Source of the DNA: Bacillota bacterium
GTDB lineage: Bacteria > Bacillota > Dethiobacteria > Dethiobacterales > Dethiobacteraceae
Direction: 5' to 3'
Assembly: GCA_012521345.1 (NCBI GenBank)
Contig: JAAYMN010000069.1
Location: 1-63,605 of the forward strand
DNA length: 63,605 nt
A program made the translations under genes and the position numbers. Shown here piece after piece: positions 41,949 through 63,063 of this stretch (positions within the stretch are counted from its first letter, which is position 1; the number at the start of each line of letters is the position of its first letter). The notes under the pieces are model-generated. The model was not told where the DNA came from and ran no database searches. It saw nothing but the letters and a program-made list of their open reading frames with translations.

Positions 41949-43649
41949 ATGCTGAACCAACACGGGAAATTGCCGCAGGTTGCTTATTTTTGCATGGAAT
42001 ACGGTTTGAGCGCGAAATTGCCTATTTATGCCGGCGGCCTCGGCATTCTGGCCGGTGATTTCCTGAAAGCGGCGGCTGATCTGAACCTGCCTCTGGTAGG
42101 CATTGGCATTCTCTGGCGCCGCGATTATACCGAGCAGTATATTGGCGAAAACGGTTGGCCATATGATACATACCCCGCTTACGATTACGACTTTGTCAAG
42201 GATACGGGCATTACGGTAAAAGTTGAAGTGAAGGGGAAGGAAGTTGCCTGCCGGGTGCGCCTGGTCGATGAATACGGCAATGCACCGCTTTATTTGCTGG
42301 ATACAAACATTCCCGGCAGTGAAGACGGCTGGATTACGGAAAAATTGTACGGCGGGGGAACAGAAGAGCGCATTGCCCAGGAAATAGTGCTTGGTATCGG
42401 CGGTGTCCGCCTGCTGCGGGCACTGAATATTGACGTGGATGTTTATCATTTCAATGAGGGGCATGCCGTGCTGGCCGGGATTGAACTGATCAGGGAAAAA
42501 ATGGCCGCAGGCATGTCCTTTGAAGCCGCATGGCAAGCCACCCGCCGGCAGGTGGTCTTTACCACCCATACACCGGTGGAGGCGGGCAATGAAAAGTATG
42601 ATCACGGCAAGTTACAGGAAATGGGTGCCTACAACGGTCTGAGCTATGAAGAAATGGTTCGCCTGGGCGGCGACCCTTTTAATATGACGGAAGCGGCCCT
42701 GCGCCTGTGTTCCATAGCCAATGCGGTGTCCAACATGCATGGGCATACGGCACGGGCCATGTGGCGGCATGTTACCGGGACAGGCCCCATCATTTCCATC
42801 ACAAACGGCGTGCATGTTCCCACCTGGCAATCACAGGAGATCTACCGCGCTTTTCTCACCGGCGGCGACCTTGTGAAACCGCATTTGAAGGCAAAACAGA
42901 AACTGATCGCTTATGCACGGCAGCATACGGATGCCAATCTTAACATTGATTCACTGCTTGTCGGTTTTGCCAGAAGAGCGGCAGGCTATAAACGCGGCGA
43001 CCTGATCTTCCGCAATGCCGAAGTTATTGACCCGCTTTTGCGGGAAGGAAAACTCCAGCTTGTTTTTTCCGGCAAAGCGCATCCCAATGACCATGAAGGA
43101 AAACGCATTATCCGCGACCTGGTCATGATGGACAGGAAATACAAAGACGCGGTTGTTTTTCTGGAAAATTACAATATGGAAATTGCCAAGCTGCTGGTTC
43201 AGGGGTGTGACGTCTGGCTCAACAACCCCCTGCGTCCGCTGGAAGCCTCCGGCACATCCGGCATGAAAGCCGCCATGAACGGCGTACTCAATTTGAGCGT
43301 TGTGGACGGCTGGGTGGGTGAAGGGCCGCAGCATGGCATTTCAGGCTGGCTGCTGGATGTCCATCACAGCGACCTGGACCCGCAGGTACAAAATATGCAT
43401 GATTTGCAAGCCCTGTATAAAGTCCTTTTTGCCGAAGTAATACCAACCTATTATTATGACAAGGACCGCTGGCAGGAAATGATGCGTGCCAGCATTGATA
43501 TGTCTCACTTCAGGTTCTCTGCCACACGCATGGTCAGGGAATACTATGAAATGATGTACCGGCGGGCAATGGATGAGCAGGATGCGGTAACGGCCCCCTG
43601 GGCGGTACCTTACCGCTCCCGCGGTGAACAGCACCCGTTCAGCTGCTGA
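41949..43649 (+). CDS. glgP: Alpha-glucan phosphorylase, short type (GT35)
   Basis: 566-aa glycogen/maltodextrin phosphorylase that releases glucose 1-phosphate from alpha-1,4-glucans. It belongs to the shorter, distant branch (classic GlgP has ~800 residues). N-terminal VAYFCMEYGLSAKLPIYAGGLGILAGD is diagnostic, as are HFNEGHAVLAGIE and VFTTHTPVEAGNE. The PLP lysine lies in EASGTSGMKAAMNG. ATG 41949 has GGGGTG upstream. No other glycogen genes are adjacent. The end is not followed by a clear terminator. Confidence 0.9.
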   Translation: MLNQHGKLPQVAYFCMEYGLSAKLPIYAGGLGILAGDFLKAAADLNLPLVGIGILWRRDYTEQYIGENGWPYDTYPAYDYDFVKDTGITVKVEVKGKEVACRVRLVDEYGNAPLYLLDTNIPGSEDGWITEKLYGGGTEERIAQEIVLGIGGVRLLRALNIDVDVYHFNEGHAVLAGIELIREKMAAGMSFEAAWQATRRQVVFTTHTPVEAGNEKYDHGKLQEMGAYNGLSYEEMVRLGGDPFNMTEAALRLCSIANAVSNMHGHTARAMWRHVTGTGPIISITNGVHVPTWQSQEIYRAFLTGGDLVKPHLKAKQKLIAYARQHTDANLNIDSLLVGFARRAAGYKRGDLIFRNAEVIDPLLREGKLQLVFSGKAHPNDHEGKRIIRDLVMMDRKYKDAVVFLENYNMEIAKLLVQGCDVWLNNPLRPLEASGTSGMKAAMNGVLNLSVVDGWVGEGPQHGISGWLLDVHHSDLDPQVQNMHDLQALYKVLFAEVIPTYYYDKDRWQEMMRASIDMSHFRFSATRMVREYYEMMYRRAMDEQDAVTAPWAVPYRSRGEQHPFSC

Positions 43650-56870: not shown

Positions 56871-58223
56871 TTAAGTCTGGTTGTTCAGGAACTTTTCTTT
56901 ACGTTTGCGGATAATGCTTACTTTATGTTCCGTCAAAGGATAAAAGCGGATAAGAACAAGGGCCAGAACGGCGAATACCGCAGGCAGCAGCGTAGACAAT
57001 GCCCCCATGGCGGCAGCTAGTTCATGGGTGGTTTCGGTGTTCGGAACATAGCCGACCAAAGAAAGACTGTAGCCGGCAACCCCACCGGCCAGGGCCATTG
57101 ATATTTTAATGGGCAGGGAGCCTAGGGACATAATGATGCCTCTGGCATTGGCTTTTGTTTTCCATTCCGTATATTCCGCCACATCAGCCAAAAAGGCGGC
57201 AGACAGCGTCATGACAATGCTGTGGCCGACAGCAGCTATGGCATGCAGAACTATAAACAGCGTAGGATTGCTGTAGAAAAACCAAGCGATCACTAAAAAG
57301 AGAAGATTAATTCCCATGCCTATATTCCAGGTAGTTACCTTTGATGTCCTGCGGACAATATACTGTCCCACTGCCGTCCCCAACATGGTAGCCACGCTTC
57401 TGGACGTTAGGAAAGCTGTAAAATAGACCGGCTTTATTGCCACATATTTAAAGTAATAAACGGACAAATTCATTACAATCAGGCTGGCTGACCAGCGGCA
57501 AACTTCCGCAACTATTAAGATGGCAAGCGGTTTGTTCTTTAAAATTTGTCCCGCCATCTCCCGCAGGCCGGCTCGCTTGCCCGTCTGCCCGGCGTTTTTG
57601 GCGTCAAAAGGCATGGAGACCGCAGCTGCCAGCCAGTAGCCCGCCAGCTGCAGCAGCGAAAAGATTAATACTGTCAGGAAAAGCCCGCGGCCTTCATCAT
57701 TCCCGCCAAGCGCTGCTATCATTGGTACCGCGACAAAACCGAAAATCAAGCTCCCGGCAGACATGGCCTGTGCTCTCCGGGCAGAAAGGAGCACACGGTC
57801 TTCATCCGAATAGGCAATGACCGGCATTAATGCATAATGGGCAGCTTCCGTCAGGTTAATGGACATATGTGCCAGTATATACATGGCCCCCAAAAAAATA
57901 ATGGTCGCGGTATGTCCGAAATTTGGATTGGTAAACATGAGCGTTACAAAAAGAGTGCTGATAGGGGGCGCAAGCCATAGCCAGCCGCTGTAGCGGCCCC
58001 AGGGGAAATGTATTTTTTCCACTATGCCGCCCGCCACAGGAACAGCAAAAGTGTCTATCACCCTAGATGCCAGTACCAGTGTACCAACTGTAGCTGCACT
58101 AATTTTCAGAATATCTGTCAGAAAATAAGCGTAATAGGTACCAACAAAATTCATCATAAGGAAAAAGCCGATCGGCCCCAGAGAAAAAATATTGACAATG
58201 CTGGATTTCAGTTTCTGCGACAA
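56871..58223 (-). CDS. GPH-family sodium/solute symporter (MFS)
   Basis: 450-aa transporter with about 12 hydrophobic segments of the glycoside-pentoside-hexuronide type: SLGPIGFFLMMNFVGTYYAYFLTDIL at the start, GRYSGWLWLAPP in the loop and ANARGIIMSLGSLPIKISMALAGG near the end. Such symporters move sugars or other organic solutes. The in-frame TTG 58223 has GGAGG eight bases upstream; an ATG at 58238 lies inside that site. Sits next to the URO-D methyltransferase gene with its own promoter, so the substrate may be a methylated compound (inference). Confidence 0.82.
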   Translation of the reverse strand: MSQKLKSSIVNIFSLGPIGFFLMMNFVGTYYAYFLTDILKISAATVGTLVLASRVIDTFAVPVAGGIVEKIHFPWGRYSGWLWLAPPISTLFVTLMFTNPNFGHTATIIFLGAMYILAHMSINLTEAAHYALMPVIAYSDEDRVLLSARRAQAMSAGSLIFGFVAVPMIAALGGNDEGRGLFLTVLIFSLLQLAGYWLAAAVSMPFDAKNAGQTGKRAGLREMAGQILKNKPLAILIVAEVCRWSASLIVMNLSVYYFKYVAIKPVYFTAFLTSRSVATMLGTAVGQYIVRRTSKVTTWNIGMGINLLFLVIAWFFYSNPTLFIVLHAIAAVGHSIVMTLSAAFLADVAEYTEWKTKANARGIIMSLGSLPIKISMALAGGVAGYSLSLVGYVPNTETTHELAAAMGALSTLLPAVFAVLALVLIRFYPLTEHKVSIIRKRKEKFLNNQT

Positions 58224-58278
58224 GACAATAACCTCCATATTAGGCAACGTAATGCTTTGAGAATACTATAATATTATT

Positions 58279-58308
58279 ATCTTACCGTGAGACAAGCCTG
58301 CCTGTCAA
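58279..58308 (-). promoter_or_regulatory. Sigma-A promoter of the transporter gene
   Basis: Minus strand TTGACA (58303-58308), 18 bases, TAAGAT (58279-58284). Confidence 0.65.
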
Positions 58309-58359
58309 TTATTGCACTGACCTAATCTGACCTGCCGGGCAGGCAGCCGGCAGGGTGCA

Positions 58360-58396
58360 AAAAAAAAGCAGCCCGCCTGAACGGGCTGTTTTTTTT
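58360..58396. terminator. Bidirectional terminator after the URO-D gene
   Basis: Stem CAGCCCG/CGGGCTG (58369-58375, 58382-58388) with A-run and T-run of 8 or more. Confidence 0.85.
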
Positions 58397-59756
58397 ACAT
58401 GATATTGACAACAGGCCTGGTGTATTTTTCATATGCCGCCCGCATCAGCGGTTCCACTCTTTCATCGACGGGCGGATATTCCTTTTTAAATTCATCAAAG
58501 CTTGGCATATATTTCGATTTAAATTCAGGATAAAGGTGCGAGAACTTCCGGATGGAATCTTCTTTTTTAGCTGTAGTGACCGGTTCGCCGGCATTGTCAT
58601 ATTTGCCGTTTTCCGCCACGTATTCCAGCACGGCAATATAGTTTTCCGGTTTAATATCATTGATATTTAGTGCCCATTTATCCATGATAAAGATGAAGTT
58701 GCCTCCGGGAGCCAGGATATCAATGAGTTCTTTCGCTTTGTCAATACATTCTTGCTTGCCGGCCCGGCCAAGCAGCGTCATGGGATAGAAGCCGCCCAGG
58801 ACCATTTTCTTGCCCAGCTTGTCTTTAAATTTCTGCGGGTCGCCATATTCCATCCATAATTGCGTGCCCTGGGGCAGGTCCTGGAGATAATCCAGGAAGC
58901 GCGTCCAGTCGCCCTCCAGGAATATTTGCATGGCCTGGCCTTGTTCGGCGGCAATATGGCAAATTTTATGGAAAGTAGGCCAGTAGAATTTCTCAAAATC
59001 CTTAGTGTTCAGGAAAGCCGCCATATGTGTCATAATCATGTTGCAGCCCAGGTGGCTCTTTACCATGGGACGCCCCATCCAGATCATGTAGGGCATAACC
59101 GCTTCCAGGGCAGCCAGCAGCTTTTCCGGACGCCGGCGCATGTCAAGCGGGATTTTGGAGAAACCGCGATAAAAATCGGCAATGAAATCAAAGGGTGCCA
59201 TCTGCATGCACACGGAACCGTCAGGACGCCTGAAAAGACCGTAGCGTTCGGCTATGGTTGCCTCAGCGACAGCAAAGGCATGGTTTGAATCCATGACAGC
59301 CAGGAGGTACTTGGCAAAGTTTAAGGCACGGTGGACTTCACCTTTGGCATAACCTGGATACATGCGCGGGTAGCACTTTTCCAAAATGAATTCATGGGGA
59401 TTTTTAATAAATTCATCATATTCGTCTTCATGCATAAAACTGCGTTCCGGGTGCTGCACAAAGCCTGTTGCTCCCATTTGCATAATCCGGGATTGCTGAA
59501 ACATAAGAGCGGCGGCATTATGGGCAAAACCGCCTGCCGGCATGTCGCCGCGGCAGACTTCCCTGGCTTTTTCATAAATCTCAAGCAAGACATCGGCGGT
59601 GTAGTTGTACTGGGTGGCCATTAAGTCCTTGCCTGCATACTGAATCATGTATTCAGTAGTAAGGCAGTCCCAGATGGGAATTCGCTCCGGAATGATGCCG
59701 GAGTAGACGTCGGAAAACAGCTTGGTGCGGTAAGCCTTTAGTTCCTGTGCATTCAC
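58395..59756 (-). CDS. URO-D-domain protein, corrinoid-type methyltransferase family
   Basis: 453-aa member of the uroporphyrinogen decarboxylase superfamily. True HemE is ~345 aa, and the HemE N-terminal RRQAGRY motif is absent, so this is a methyltransferase-like branch (MtaA/CmuA group). A VKSHLGCNMIMTHMAA segment and DYLQDLPQGTQLWMEYGDPQKFKDKLG are visible. Such proteins move methyl groups between corrinoid proteins and coenzymes or tetrahydrofolate. Start GTG 59756 follows GAGGTG. Own promoter; methyl substrate unknown. No corrinoid protein is adjacent. Confidence 0.8.
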   Translation of the reverse strand: MNAQELKAYRTKLFSDVYSGIIPERIPIWDCLTTEYMIQYAGKDLMATQYNYTADVLLEIYEKAREVCRGDMPAGGFAHNAAALMFQQSRIMQMGATGFVQHPERSFMHEDEYDEFIKNPHEFILEKCYPRMYPGYAKGEVHRALNFAKYLLAVMDSNHAFAVAEATIAERYGLFRRPDGSVCMQMAPFDFIADFYRGFSKIPLDMRRRPEKLLAALEAVMPYMIWMGRPMVKSHLGCNMIMTHMAAFLNTKDFEKFYWPTFHKICHIAAEQGQAMQIFLEGDWTRFLDYLQDLPQGTQLWMEYGDPQKFKDKLGKKMVLGGFYPMTLLGRAGKQECIDKAKELIDILAPGGNFIFIMDKWALNINDIKPENYIAVLEYVAENGKYDNAGEPVTTAKKEDSIRKFSHLYPEFKSKYMPSFDEFKKEYPPVDERVEPLMRAAYEKYTRPVVNIM

Positions 59757-59826
59757 TTTTTTCACCTCTTTTATTATTTTCTGCAGCCAGGAAAGCGGCT
59801 GCCGGCTGCCGGTCGTGGTTAAAAAA

Positions 59827-59856: not shown

Positions 59857-60000
59857 GCCTATTCAGAATTTTAGCAAAATAACTGTCCGGTCTGGCAAGT
59901 ACTAACAGATAGAAAGGATTTCCGTCCTTTGCAGGGAATACTATCCCTAAAAGACAAGAGGCGGATGCCTGCCCGGCAAGACACCGGTGAGGAGAAAGGT

Positions 60001-61677
60001 ATGAGCATTAATCTGTTTTTATCTGATCTGACAGCCCAAGCTGCAAGTGCTTATACACTGGTTGCCCGCTGGCTTTTTCCCTTGCTTGCCCTGGTTATCC
60101 TGGTGCGCTGCCTTGTCCCGCTCATCCAGGAACGTTCCGCAAACACCGTATGGGGATACCTTGTACTGGCCAACGGCACGTCTATTCCGGTCAGAAACTG
60201 GGAGAATCTGATCGGACGCGGCAAATATGCAGATATTGTTGTTAATTTCCCCGTGGTTTCCCGCAGCCACGCCGTCCTCACTTTTAGGAACGGCATCTGG
60301 ACGATAGCCGACCTGGGTTCCAAGGGGGGCATAACGGTCAACGGTGTAAAAGTGGACAAGGCGCAAGAAATCCAGTTTGGGGATGTTATCTCCCTGGCCG
60401 GCATTGAGATGGCTCTTGTTCCACAGTTACAGAATGAAGCGTCAAAATTTACGGATGTGGCGGGAGGAAGCAGCGATACGGAAGGAGAGAAGAATTCTGC
60501 GTTAAACAGTGCAGTTACCCTTCTGCTTTTGTTTTTGTTTCAGGTGCTTGCCCTTGTCCAGCTTTTTGCTTCGCGCGACGGCATAACACTTGCCGCGCTG
60601 CCTGTATTCGGCATCTATTTCCTTGTTGAATTGCTTCATTACCTTTTAATGCGCAGACTGCAAAGCGGGAATATTGAGCTGGAACTGCTCGCTTATTTTC
60701 TCTGCGGCCTTAACCTGGCGCTGGTGGCTTCAGCCGCACCTTCCGACCTTAAAAAGCAGCTGGCAGCAATCCTGCTCGGGATCGCCGCCTATACTGTCAT
60801 TACCTGGTTTTGCCGTGATCTTGGCCGGGCAAGGCGGCTCAAATATCTGGCGCTGGGCGGAGGGGTGCTTTTACTGATATTGAACCTTGCTTTCGGGGAA
60901 AAAATTTACGGGGCAAGAAACTGGATCAACCTCGGCTTTATAACCTTCCAGCCGCTGGAGTTTGTCAAAATTTCCTTTGTGCTGGCCGGCACCGCAACTT
61001 TGGACCGCCTGCTCACAACCAGGAACATGACGGCCTTTATCGCTTTCGCCGGAGCCTGCATGATCACCCTGGCGCTTATCCGTGATTTTGGCACAGCGGT
61101 AGTTTTCTTCGGCGCTTTTTTAGTAATTGCCTTTATGTACTCCGGCGATTTGCGGACACTTTTCCTGGTAACTGCCGGCGCCGCTTTTGCCGGGATCGCC
61201 GTTGTTACCTTTATGCCATATATCGCCATGCGTTTTGCCGCCTGGGGCAAAGTCTGGCAGTATGCCGACAGCACAGGCTTCCAGCAGACCAGAACAATGA
61301 TTGCAGCAGCCAGCGGCGGCCTCTTTGGCGTTGGAGGCGGAAACGGCTACCTGAAAAATATTGCCGCGGCCGATACAGATCTTGTTTTCGGCATGCTTTG
61401 TGAAGAGTGGGGCTTGCTTGTCGCTTTGTGCGTCTTGCTGGTGATAATCTTTTTTGTCTTTTATGCGGTCCTGTTGACTAAAAACAGCCGTTCTGCCTTT
61501 TATGCCATTGCAGCCTGCGGGGCGGCAACAATCTTTTTGCTGCAAACGGCATTGAATGTACTTGGTTCAGTTGATGTCCTTCCTCTGACGGGGTTAACAA
61601 TACCGTTCATTTCCAATGGCGGTTCTTCCATGGTTGCCTCATGGGGACTGCTGGCCTTAATCAGATCCGCAGCCTGA
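60001..61677 (+). CDS. FHA-SEDS fusion (RodA/FtsW-type glycosyltransferase)
   Basis: 558-aa membrane protein. One N-terminal helix (about 17-40), a cytoplasmic FHA domain at about 68-125 with its phosphothreonine-binding residues (IGRGKYADIVV, SRSHAVL, VNGVKV), and then a SEDS peptidoglycan polymerase of about ten helices. SEDS markers: GARNWINLGFITFQPLEFVK, LIRDFGTAVVFFG, GVGGGNGYLKNIAAADTDLVF and LTIPFISNGGSS. FHA on a SEDS protein suggests control by a Ser/Thr kinase such as PrkC. ATG 60001 follows GGTGAGGAG. A transpeptidase gene follows after 27 bases. Confidence 0.9.
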   Translation: MSINLFLSDLTAQAASAYTLVARWLFPLLALVILVRCLVPLIQERSANTVWGYLVLANGTSIPVRNWENLIGRGKYADIVVNFPVVSRSHAVLTFRNGIWTIADLGSKGGITVNGVKVDKAQEIQFGDVISLAGIEMALVPQLQNEASKFTDVAGGSSDTEGEKNSALNSAVTLLLLFLFQVLALVQLFASRDGITLAALPVFGIYFLVELLHYLLMRRLQSGNIELELLAYFLCGLNLALVASAAPSDLKKQLAAILLGIAAYTVITWFCRDLGRARRLKYLALGGGVLLLILNLAFGEKIYGARNWINLGFITFQPLEFVKISFVLAGTATLDRLLTTRNMTAFIAFAGACMITLALIRDFGTAVVFFGAFLVIAFMYSGDLRTLFLVTAGAAFAGIAVVTFMPYIAMRFAAWGKVWQYADSTGFQQTRTMIAAASGGLFGVGGGNGYLKNIAAADTDLVFGMLCEEWGLLVALCVLLVIIFFVFYAVLLTKNSRSAFYAIAACGAATIFLLQTALNVLGSVDVLPLTGLTIPFISNGGSSMVASWGLLALIRSAA

Positions 61678-61704
61678 ACCTGCGGCAGAAAAGCGGTGAG
61701 AAGA

Positions 61705-63063
61705 ATGAAACTGCTTGCCATCAGGACGCTTGTCTTAATTGCGCTGGCCCTGCTTTTTCTGGCAGGTTTTACAGTGTTTGTGGGCCGCTACTTGCACAGC
61801 GCCGCAGTGTGGGCGCAGCACCCGTCCAACCGACACCTATACCAGAGCGGCAGGCTTAAAGAAACAGGCACTATTTATGACCGCCGCGGGGAAATATTGC
61901 TGGAAACAAAAGACGGCGTTCTCACATTTCACTCCGAGCAGAGCGTACGCACGGCTGTCATGCATGTAACAGGCGACCGGGGAGGCAACGTGGCGACAGG
62001 CATGCTAAAAGTCATGTGGGAGCGTCTCACCGGCTGGAACCTACTGAACGGGGCATACCGCTACCGGGACAAATTGTCTGCCGCCAATGATCTTACCCTC
62101 ACGCTGGATGCCAGGTTAAGCGCGCTGGCTTACAAAGAACTGAAAGGCCGGAAGGGAGCGGTGGGCGTCTATAATTACAAGACGGGAGAGATTATTTGCA
62201 TGACCAGTTCCCCGTCCTTTGATCCGCAAAATCCTCCCGACATCGAAGCCGATCCTGAACGCTACGAGGGAGTCTACCTGAACCGCCTGCTGTCGGCTGC
62301 TTATACCCCCGGTTCAATTTTTAAAGTGGTGACTGCGGCGGCTGCCCTGGAGACCATTCCGGACATTGAGGAAAGGCATTATCAATGTTCCGGCAAGATA
62401 CAAATCGGGGCGGATACTGTCACCTGCCTTGTCCCCCACGGAGATGTGACGTTGAGAGACGCCCTGGCGCATTCCTGCAATGTTGCTTTCGCCCAAATTG
62501 CCGGGGAAGTTGGCGCCGATGCCCTGCAACATTATGCGGAACTGGCCGGATTTAACAACAGGCTCACTTTTGACGGCATCAAAACAGCCGCCGGCAAGGT
62601 GGATGTAAAACACGCGGCACCGGTAGAGCTGGCCTGGGCGGGTATCGGCCAGCATACAAACACGGCCAACCCGCTTGCTTATATGGTTTTCATGGGGGCA
62701 ATCGCCAACGGCGGCCTGAGTGTGGCCCCGGAAATAATCGCCCGGGAAAATATGCTTCCCGCTATGACAAAAGCGGAAAAAAGAATCCTGCCGACAGAAA
62801 CGGCGGAAAAACTTAAGGAAATGCTGCGCAACAACACCTTGGCAGTTTATGGCGAAAGTCGTTTCAGCGGACTTGAGCTGTGCGCAAAATCGGGAACTGC
62901 CGAAGTAGGGAAGGGGAAGGAGCCGCACGCCTGGTTTGCCGGTTTTCTCGACAGGGAAGACTTTCCCTATGCCTTTGTTGTGATTATTGAAAACGGCGGC
63001 ACAGGCAGCAGGACCGCGGCGGCAGTAGCAGCCGGCGTCCTGCATGCCGCGGTTGCCAGGTAG
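61705..63063 (+). CDS. Penicillin-binding transpeptidase (PBP2/PbpA type)
   Basis: 452-aa class-B PBP: N-terminal anchor (about 5-25), a short pedestal and a transpeptidase domain with S-x-x-K in TPGSIFKVVTAA, S-x-N in AHSCNVAFAQ and K-S-G-T in LCAKSGTAEVG. It is smaller than classic PBP2 or PBP3, resembling the actinobacterial PbpA. Together with the preceding SEDS gene it forms a polymerase/cross-linker pair. ATG 61705 after GGTGAGAAG; GTG 61696 also possible. Confidence 0.9.
   Translation: MKLLAIRTLVLIALALLFLAGFTVFVGRYLHSAAVWAQHPSNRHLYQSGRLKETGTIYDRRGEILLETKDGVLTFHSEQSVRTAVMHVTGDRGGNVATGMLKVMWERLTGWNLLNGAYRYRDKLSAANDLTLTLDARLSALAYKELKGRKGAVGVYNYKTGEIICMTSSPSFDPQNPPDIEADPERYEGVYLNRLLSAAYTPGSIFKVVTAAAALETIPDIEERHYQCSGKIQIGADTVTCLVPHGDVTLRDALAHSCNVAFAQIAGEVGADALQHYAELAGFNNRLTFDGIKTAAGKVDVKHAAPVELAWAGIGQHTNTANPLAYMVFMGAIANGGLSVAPEIIARENMLPAMTKAEKRILPTETAEKLKEMLRNNTLAVYGESRFSGLELCAKSGTAEVGKGKEPHAWFAGFLDREDFPYAFVVIIENGGTGSRTAAAVAAGVLHAAVAR

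Follow-up and report, generated by a model that had tools for sequence, protein, structure and literature searches.

A conserved FHA-SEDS fusion adjoined by a class B penicillin-binding protein in Bacillota genomes

Introduction

Pairs of SEDS proteins and class B penicillin-binding proteins (PBPs) polymerise and crosslink peptidoglycan. The RodA-PBP2 synthase (PDB 6pl5) is such a pair, with a PBP2 of 598 aa and devoid of an FHA domain. In Mycobacterium tuberculosis, the fhaA-fhaB-pstP-rodA-pbpA-pknA-pknB locus holds RodA and PbpA together with FHA proteins, a phosphatase and kinases. To our knowledge, there is no settled view of how FHA proteins encoded in the fha-rodA-pbpA-pknB cluster influence wall synthesis. 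Excerpts of PMC6554272 describe this cluster as conserved in Actinobacteria, and the linkage of pknB and fhaA as conserved in a subset of Firmicutes. Coupling of FHA domains to wall synthesis has a precedent, since mycobacterial PbpA interacts with FhaA (an excerpt of PMC8093794, citing others) and phosphorylated CwlM binds FhaA (an excerpt of PMC6736417). Concerning the domain itself, Gly, Arg, Ser, His and Asn are given as the most conserved FHA residues in the consulted section of PMC4238996, while Arg, Ser and Asn are named for phosphothreonine recognition in that of PMC10470591.

The present work concerns a stretch of 63,605 nucleotides (the window), contig JAAYMN010000069.1 of the Bacillota bacterium assembly GCA_012521345.1, in which an FHA domain and a SEDS polymerase are encoded as one protein. 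The unfused cluster of Firmicutes has been published; for its fused form, a literature search restricted to open-licence PMC papers found no paper on an FHA-RodA/FtsW fusion. Architectures combining FHA and FTSW are visible in domain databases.

Results

The fused protein and its PBP

The window carries a single ORF in which a hydrophobic N-terminal segment is followed by an FHA domain and then by a polytopic SEDS (RodA/FtsW) region, as read from hydropathy and Pfam (Table 1). Both domains pass their Pfam cut-offs, FHA (PF00498, aa 70-132) with 59.4 bits against 20.7 and FTSW_RODA_SPOVE (PF01098, aa 249-556) with 182.1 bits against 26.4, and a PBP ORF starts on the same strand 18 nt past the SEDS stop. 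The earlier note had described an FHA domain fused to a SEDS polymerase and coupled to a small PBP, which is confirmed; its contrast between this fusion and the fha, rodA and pbpA genes of Actinobacteria also holds, the latter being separate according to the excerpts of PMC6554272.

Table 1. Coordinates of features in the window.
Feature	Position	Strand	Basis or remark
FHA-SEDS fusion ORF, FhaB-RodA-like, 558 aa	60001..61677	+	ATG at 60001, stop ending at 61677
Shine-Dalgarno-like AGGAGAAAGG ahead of ATG 60001	59990..59999	+	read in sequence
Hydrophobic segment near the N-terminus (aa 24-42), likely a single membrane helix	60070..60126	+	hydropathy peak 2.46
FHA domain, aa 70-132; R73, S87, R88, H90 kept, hallmark Asn replaced by G109	60208..60396	+	
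Linker, aa 143-168; variable in sequence and length	60427..60504	+	alignment; relaxed dN/dS
SEDS polymerase core, PF01098 match	60745..61674	+	Pfam profile; PDB FtsW/RodA matches
Codon for D460, which aligns to the catalytic Asp of SEDS proteins (TD(F/L) motif)	61378..61380	+	invariant in 26/26
PbpA-type transpeptidase (class B PBP) of 455 aa; motifs SxxK, SCN, KSGT	61696..63063	+	
URO-D-family protein and GPH-type symporter, divergent to the fusion	56871..59765	-	
566-aa protein, carbohydrate phosphorylase match over part of the profile (424-579 of 713)	41949..43649	+	

The PDB sequence matches of the SEDS part are FtsW and RodA, and its scores lie below the NCBIfam equivalog cut-offs of both ftsW (191 vs 337.5) and rodA_shape (164.8 vs 336.7). 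D460 aligns to the HTD motif of PDB FtsW, and this Asp is invariant in all members of the window's own fusion family (hereafter fusion I; 26 members, i.e., 25 fetched loci and the window). We take its position to be that of the catalytic Asp of SEDS proteins, in the large extracellular loop. For the FHA part, the best equivalog model is FhaB Rv0019c (NF049868), under its cut-off (39.8 vs 125 bits), and the nearest PDB sequences are M. tuberculosis TB39.8/FhaA, with other FHA domains also matched. An AlphaFold model (mean pLDDT 52), which was built from a shallow alignment of 10 sequences and used for a rough helix count only, has about 12 long helices after the FHA domain, roughly agreeing with hydropathy; no FHA-SEDS contact is discernible in this model, which is too poor for it. 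By the predicted topology, the FHA domain would sit on the cytoplasmic side of the same chain as SEDS.

The neighbouring protein matches Transpeptidase (PF00905) with 154.8 bits, and its motifs PGSIFK, SCN and KSGT are intact. Across fusion I, SxxK and SCN are found in 26 of 26 PBPs and KS/TGT in 24, the two exceptions (L069, L072) being short PBP ORFs that run to the end of their stretch. Top PDB matches are 4mnr, 4ra7, 4jbf, 4n1x and Penicillin-binding protein A (3un7, 3lo7), with SpoVD and RodA-type PBP2 ranking behind proteins of PbpA size. Given the activity of SEDS-class B PBP pairs in general and the intact catalytic residues, the FHA-SEDS/PBP pair should polymerise and crosslink peptidoglycan. 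As to the surroundings, genes similar to the divergent URO-D and symporter genes recur next to the fusion in a few relatives only.

The host genome

The assembly (2.06 Mb in 130 contigs, 97% complete) holds one FHA domain, three SEDS genes and two Ser/Thr kinases. Of the other two SEDS genes, named by eye, one is an FtsW within a mur cluster and one a RodA whose surroundings include minD and an M23-type gene; the fusion is a third SEDS in addition to these two. The earlier note had suggested looking for a PrkC-type kinase, and one is present: a PASTA-bearing PrkC, with a PP2C phosphatase (PrpC) and rlmN ahead of it. This rlmN-prpC-prkC locus is without fha, rodA and pbpA genes and lies on a contig (C10) different from that of the fusion (C93). 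The second Ser/Thr kinase ORF (L003, 1441-2988) continues, by eye, into an ATPase-like region, and lies downstream of an ORF with S-layer-like repeats, also read by eye.

Distribution and gene order

The fusion is present as a single ORF in 17 of the 59 relatives searched, the window's own genome counted. A sample of 398 genomes from across the phylum contains it in 14, at 40-100% identity. Four genomes, the window's own (G000) and G009, G015 and G021, are common to both samples, leaving 27 fusion genomes that span 11 family codes; at least seven loci with the fusion come from named public metagenome-assembled genomes (MAGs). Its occurrence is patchy, and it is accessory, because only 7 of the 19 genomes of the window's own family carry it.

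Gene order was compared in 120 fetched loci, which are the best-scoring rows of the relative and phylum searches and not a random sample, and which were classed with profiles built from the window and seeds of its own genome. The largest class (50 loci) is the full cluster of FHA, PP2C, rodA, pbpA and PASTA kinase, followed by a split fha-rodA-pbpA arrangement without kinase (26), fusion I (25), a second fusion with fhaA upstream and a kinase downstream (9), loci without any FHA found (8, among them L174, cut by a contig end) and loci with a kinase and no PP2C (2). In 48 of the 50 full-cluster loci a second, FhaA-like FHA is present, and the PBP directly follows SEDS or is fused to it in all 120 loci except L165 and L169. 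All 64 kinase ORFs found beside synthases in these loci carry PASTA.

At the 25 fetched loci of fusion I, neither a kinase nor a phosphatase gene was found. The PBP adjoins the fusion in 26 of 26 cases and no other neighbour cluster recurs in more than five of them; therefore, the fused pair is a stable two-gene unit, located away from the kinase locus. Of the 50 full-cluster loci, 48 carry rlmN, which is missing from the loci of both fusions. The parts of the fused pair match those of a kinase-phosphatase-FHA-RodA-PbpA cluster that elsewhere is single.

Comparison with the M. tuberculosis locus reveals FHA, RodA and PbpA parts in the same order, with the FHA domain of the window nearest TB39.8 (FhaA) in the PDB and its PBP near PbpA. 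Unlike in that locus, the window's FhaB and RodA are one polypeptide, the FHA Asn is lost, and FhaA, the phosphatase and the kinase are absent. The Firmicutes rlmN-prpC-prkC locus, with its FHA genes, PP2C, rodA, pbpA and PASTA kinase, has homologous SEDS, PBP and FHA; there, however, the genes are separate and the kinase is adjacent (50 loci), whereas in the window's genome kinase and synthase are on different contigs. The SEDS and class B PBP of the window also resemble RodA-PBP2, which differs in the features mentioned in the Introduction. The second fusion clade (family code f32; L117, L121, L133, L145, L152, L163, L166, L168 and L170) shares with fusion I the FHA fused to SEDS and the PBP next to it, but keeps the upstream fhaA and the downstream PASTA kinase, with no PP2C between.

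Other joined ORFs were also met among the fetched loci. L098 (G240) holds a single ORF of 812 aa joining PP2C to SEDS, while in L115 (G343) and L177 (G203) SEDS is joined to the PBP, in ORFs of 912 and 837 aa, respectively; neighbouring genes of the rodA/pbpA cluster thus seem to have been joined in various ways.

One or two fusion events

In a SEDS tree of 86 rows, for which every second full-cluster and split locus was skipped, fusion I forms one clade with a support of 100, and the second fusion is placed inside the full-cluster group. Two trees of SEDS and PBP together, on subsets of 60 and 58 rows, likewise separate the two fused groups from each other. From these, 13 loci were left out (the duplicate L007 and long-branch, otherwise fused or truncated rows), as was the class without FHA, and the large classes were halved; the 58-row set consists of the other half of three halved classes together with the same second-fusion rows as the 60-row set. 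The trees are most simply read as showing two fusion events, one event not being rejected by AU tests of a single fused clade (p = 0.136 for SEDS with 86 rows, p = 0.016 for SEDS and PBP with 60 rows, and p = 0.47 with 58 rows). The fusion may, in other words, have arisen twice from the same gene cluster.

The FHA pocket and selection on it

In the alignment, G72, R73, S87, R88 and H90 are invariant in all 26 fusion-I members. The position of the hallmark Asn, for which the window's G109 was aligned to the N of NGT in 3po8, holds Gly in 16 members including the window, Asn in five (L068, L069, L072, L073 and L084) and another residue in the remaining five. The residue preceding it is Lys in 25 of 26, and the Thr of the NGT motif is retained in just two. 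Asn is kept in all 26 split fhaB, in 98% of the 50 full-cluster fhaB and in 97% of the 48 full-cluster fhaA sequences, and the Thr is mostly kept in split fhaB as well; the second fusion clade has Asn and a canonical NGT loop with Thr in 9 of 9. Specific to the fusion-I family is an invariant W67-E68 ahead of the GR motif.

Because the phosphate ligands are invariant while Asn and Thr are mostly replaced, the fusion-I domain thus appears to have kept the phosphate side of the pocket and to have remodelled the peptide-gripping loop. The phosphothreonine-reading domain of the earlier note therefore stands in part: the phosphate ligands are kept, but the hallmark Asn is lost in the window. This loss is the main caution against a plain phosphothreonine reader, and with Gly at the Asn position in the window, and Asn in just five of the 26 members, the predicted ligand binding may be altered.

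Nei-Gojobori dN/dS is 0.05-0.27 for FHA (8 pairs), 0.05-0.13 for SEDS (7 computable pairs) and 0.25-1.06 for the linker of 19-26 codons (7 computable pairs). FHA is clearly under purifying selection, somewhat weaker than that on SEDS in most pairs. An intramolecular phosphosite in the linker was also considered and rejected, as no conserved Thr was found among the 14 of 26 members inspected.

Kinases, FHA number and sporulation

PASTA domains are present in 68 of 69 genomes, 27 with and 42 without the fusion. Co-occurrence with a PASTA kinase consequently does not discriminate and was dropped as evidence. With PASTA domains near-universal regardless of the fusion, no kinase found near the 25 fetched fusion-I loci and the PASTA kinase of the window's genome on another contig, the direct link between a Ser/Thr kinase and wall synthesis put forward earlier stays a proposal. 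Exactly one FHA, that of the fusion, is found in 24 of the 27 fusion genomes, the others having more (G419 and G389 two each, G021 eleven), while 37 of the 42 genomes without the fusion have none. The genome with eleven FHA domains (locus L064) is a single contig.

Spo0A_C was detected in 25 of the 27 genomes with the fusion (in G434 and G316 by a partial or weak match) and in 27 of the 42 others (Fisher p = 0.0095, uncorrected for kinship). The suggested role in spore control thus has a weak association in its favour. Upstream of the fusion, the alignment of three congeneric genomes contains conserved blocks, in which no sporulation-specific promoter or sigma factor was assigned by eye.

Discussion

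We consider it probable, with reservations, that the protein is an FhaB-RodA fusion in which a predicted recognition of phosphothreonine acts in cis on RodA/PbpA. According to this proposal, the SEDS-class B PBP wall synthase would consist of a RodA-type glycosyltransferase and a PbpA-type transpeptidase, with the polymerase carrying its own FhaB, namely a membrane helix and a cytoplasmic FHA fused ahead of RodA. The FHA domain would bind either the PASTA kinase, PrkC, or a partner that PrkC has phosphorylated on threonine. Such binding could recruit or allosterically switch the attached polymerase and the PBP complexed with it, and the PrpC phosphatase would reverse the switch. In favour of this reading are the gene order of the unfused parts, the constant adjacency of a PBP resembling PbpA, FhaB as the best equivalog model, purifying selection on the FHA domain, its invariant phosphate ligands and its being the sole FHA in 24 of 27 fusion genomes. 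Against it stand the replaced Asn, the lack of kinase and phosphatase genes at the fetched fusion-I loci, PASTA domains that do not follow the fusion, the patchy occurrence of the latter, the linker without a conserved Thr in the members inspected and a model too poor to reveal an FHA-SEDS contact. We infer the phospho-dependence, the identity of kinase and ligand, the complex with the PBP and the direction in which regulation works. Most likely, the PASTA kinase or one of its substrates would act through phospho-dependent recruitment or switching in cis. A further-reaching version can be held only tentatively: in these lineages a single protein would remain for the FHA-type readout of Ser/Thr phosphorylation, built permanently into one wall polymerase, with the pocket remodelled (Asn to Gly, with the conserved Lys) to recognise one dedicated ligand. 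Kinase signal and glycan polymerisation would thereby be coupled in cis, and the fusion itself may have arisen twice.

Several other explanations could account for the observed structure. That two genes were joined through a stop missed in assembly or annotation might be suspected from related clades, in which both genes are adjacent with a stop between them; yet the same stop-free frame recurs in both genome samples, which have only four genomes in common, and in separately assembled named MAGs, so that an artefact is already refuted and deserves practically no credence. A rather unlikely alternative, less so than an artefact by far, is that the FHA domain, its Asn lost, no longer reads phosphothreonine in the usual manner. 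It would instead serve as a fixed module for structure or protein-protein contact, such as an anchor for the PBP, the cytoskeleton or a carboxylate/phosphoserine ligand, the fusion being a constitutive assembly aid. The replacement of Asn in 21 of 26 members and the near-complete loss of the NGT Thr speak for it, as do the retention of both residues throughout the second fusion and mostly in split fhaB, and the family-specific W67-E68. The invariant R73, S87, R88 and H90, together with the nearly invariant Lys, look instead like an anion pocket that was kept and remodelled.

It is also conceivable, though we would not count on it, that the pair is a sporulation-specific synthase of the spore cortex or the engulfment wall, tied by its FHA domain to a forespore or mother-cell signal. 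This possibility is compatible with the FhaB-RodA reading, and it would suit both the Spo0A_C association and a genome that already has a separate FtsW and RodA. The association is, however, confounded by kinship, two genomes (G028, G047, both incomplete assemblies) carry the fusion without Spo0A_C, and the upstream region offered no sporulation-specific promoter to the eye.

For the FHA proteins of the wider cluster, a natural and conserved FhaB-RodA fusion suggests that the target of FhaB is RodA itself or something held beside RodA. The fusion could thereby serve as a one-protein system in which the action of FhaB is probed by mutation of the pocket.
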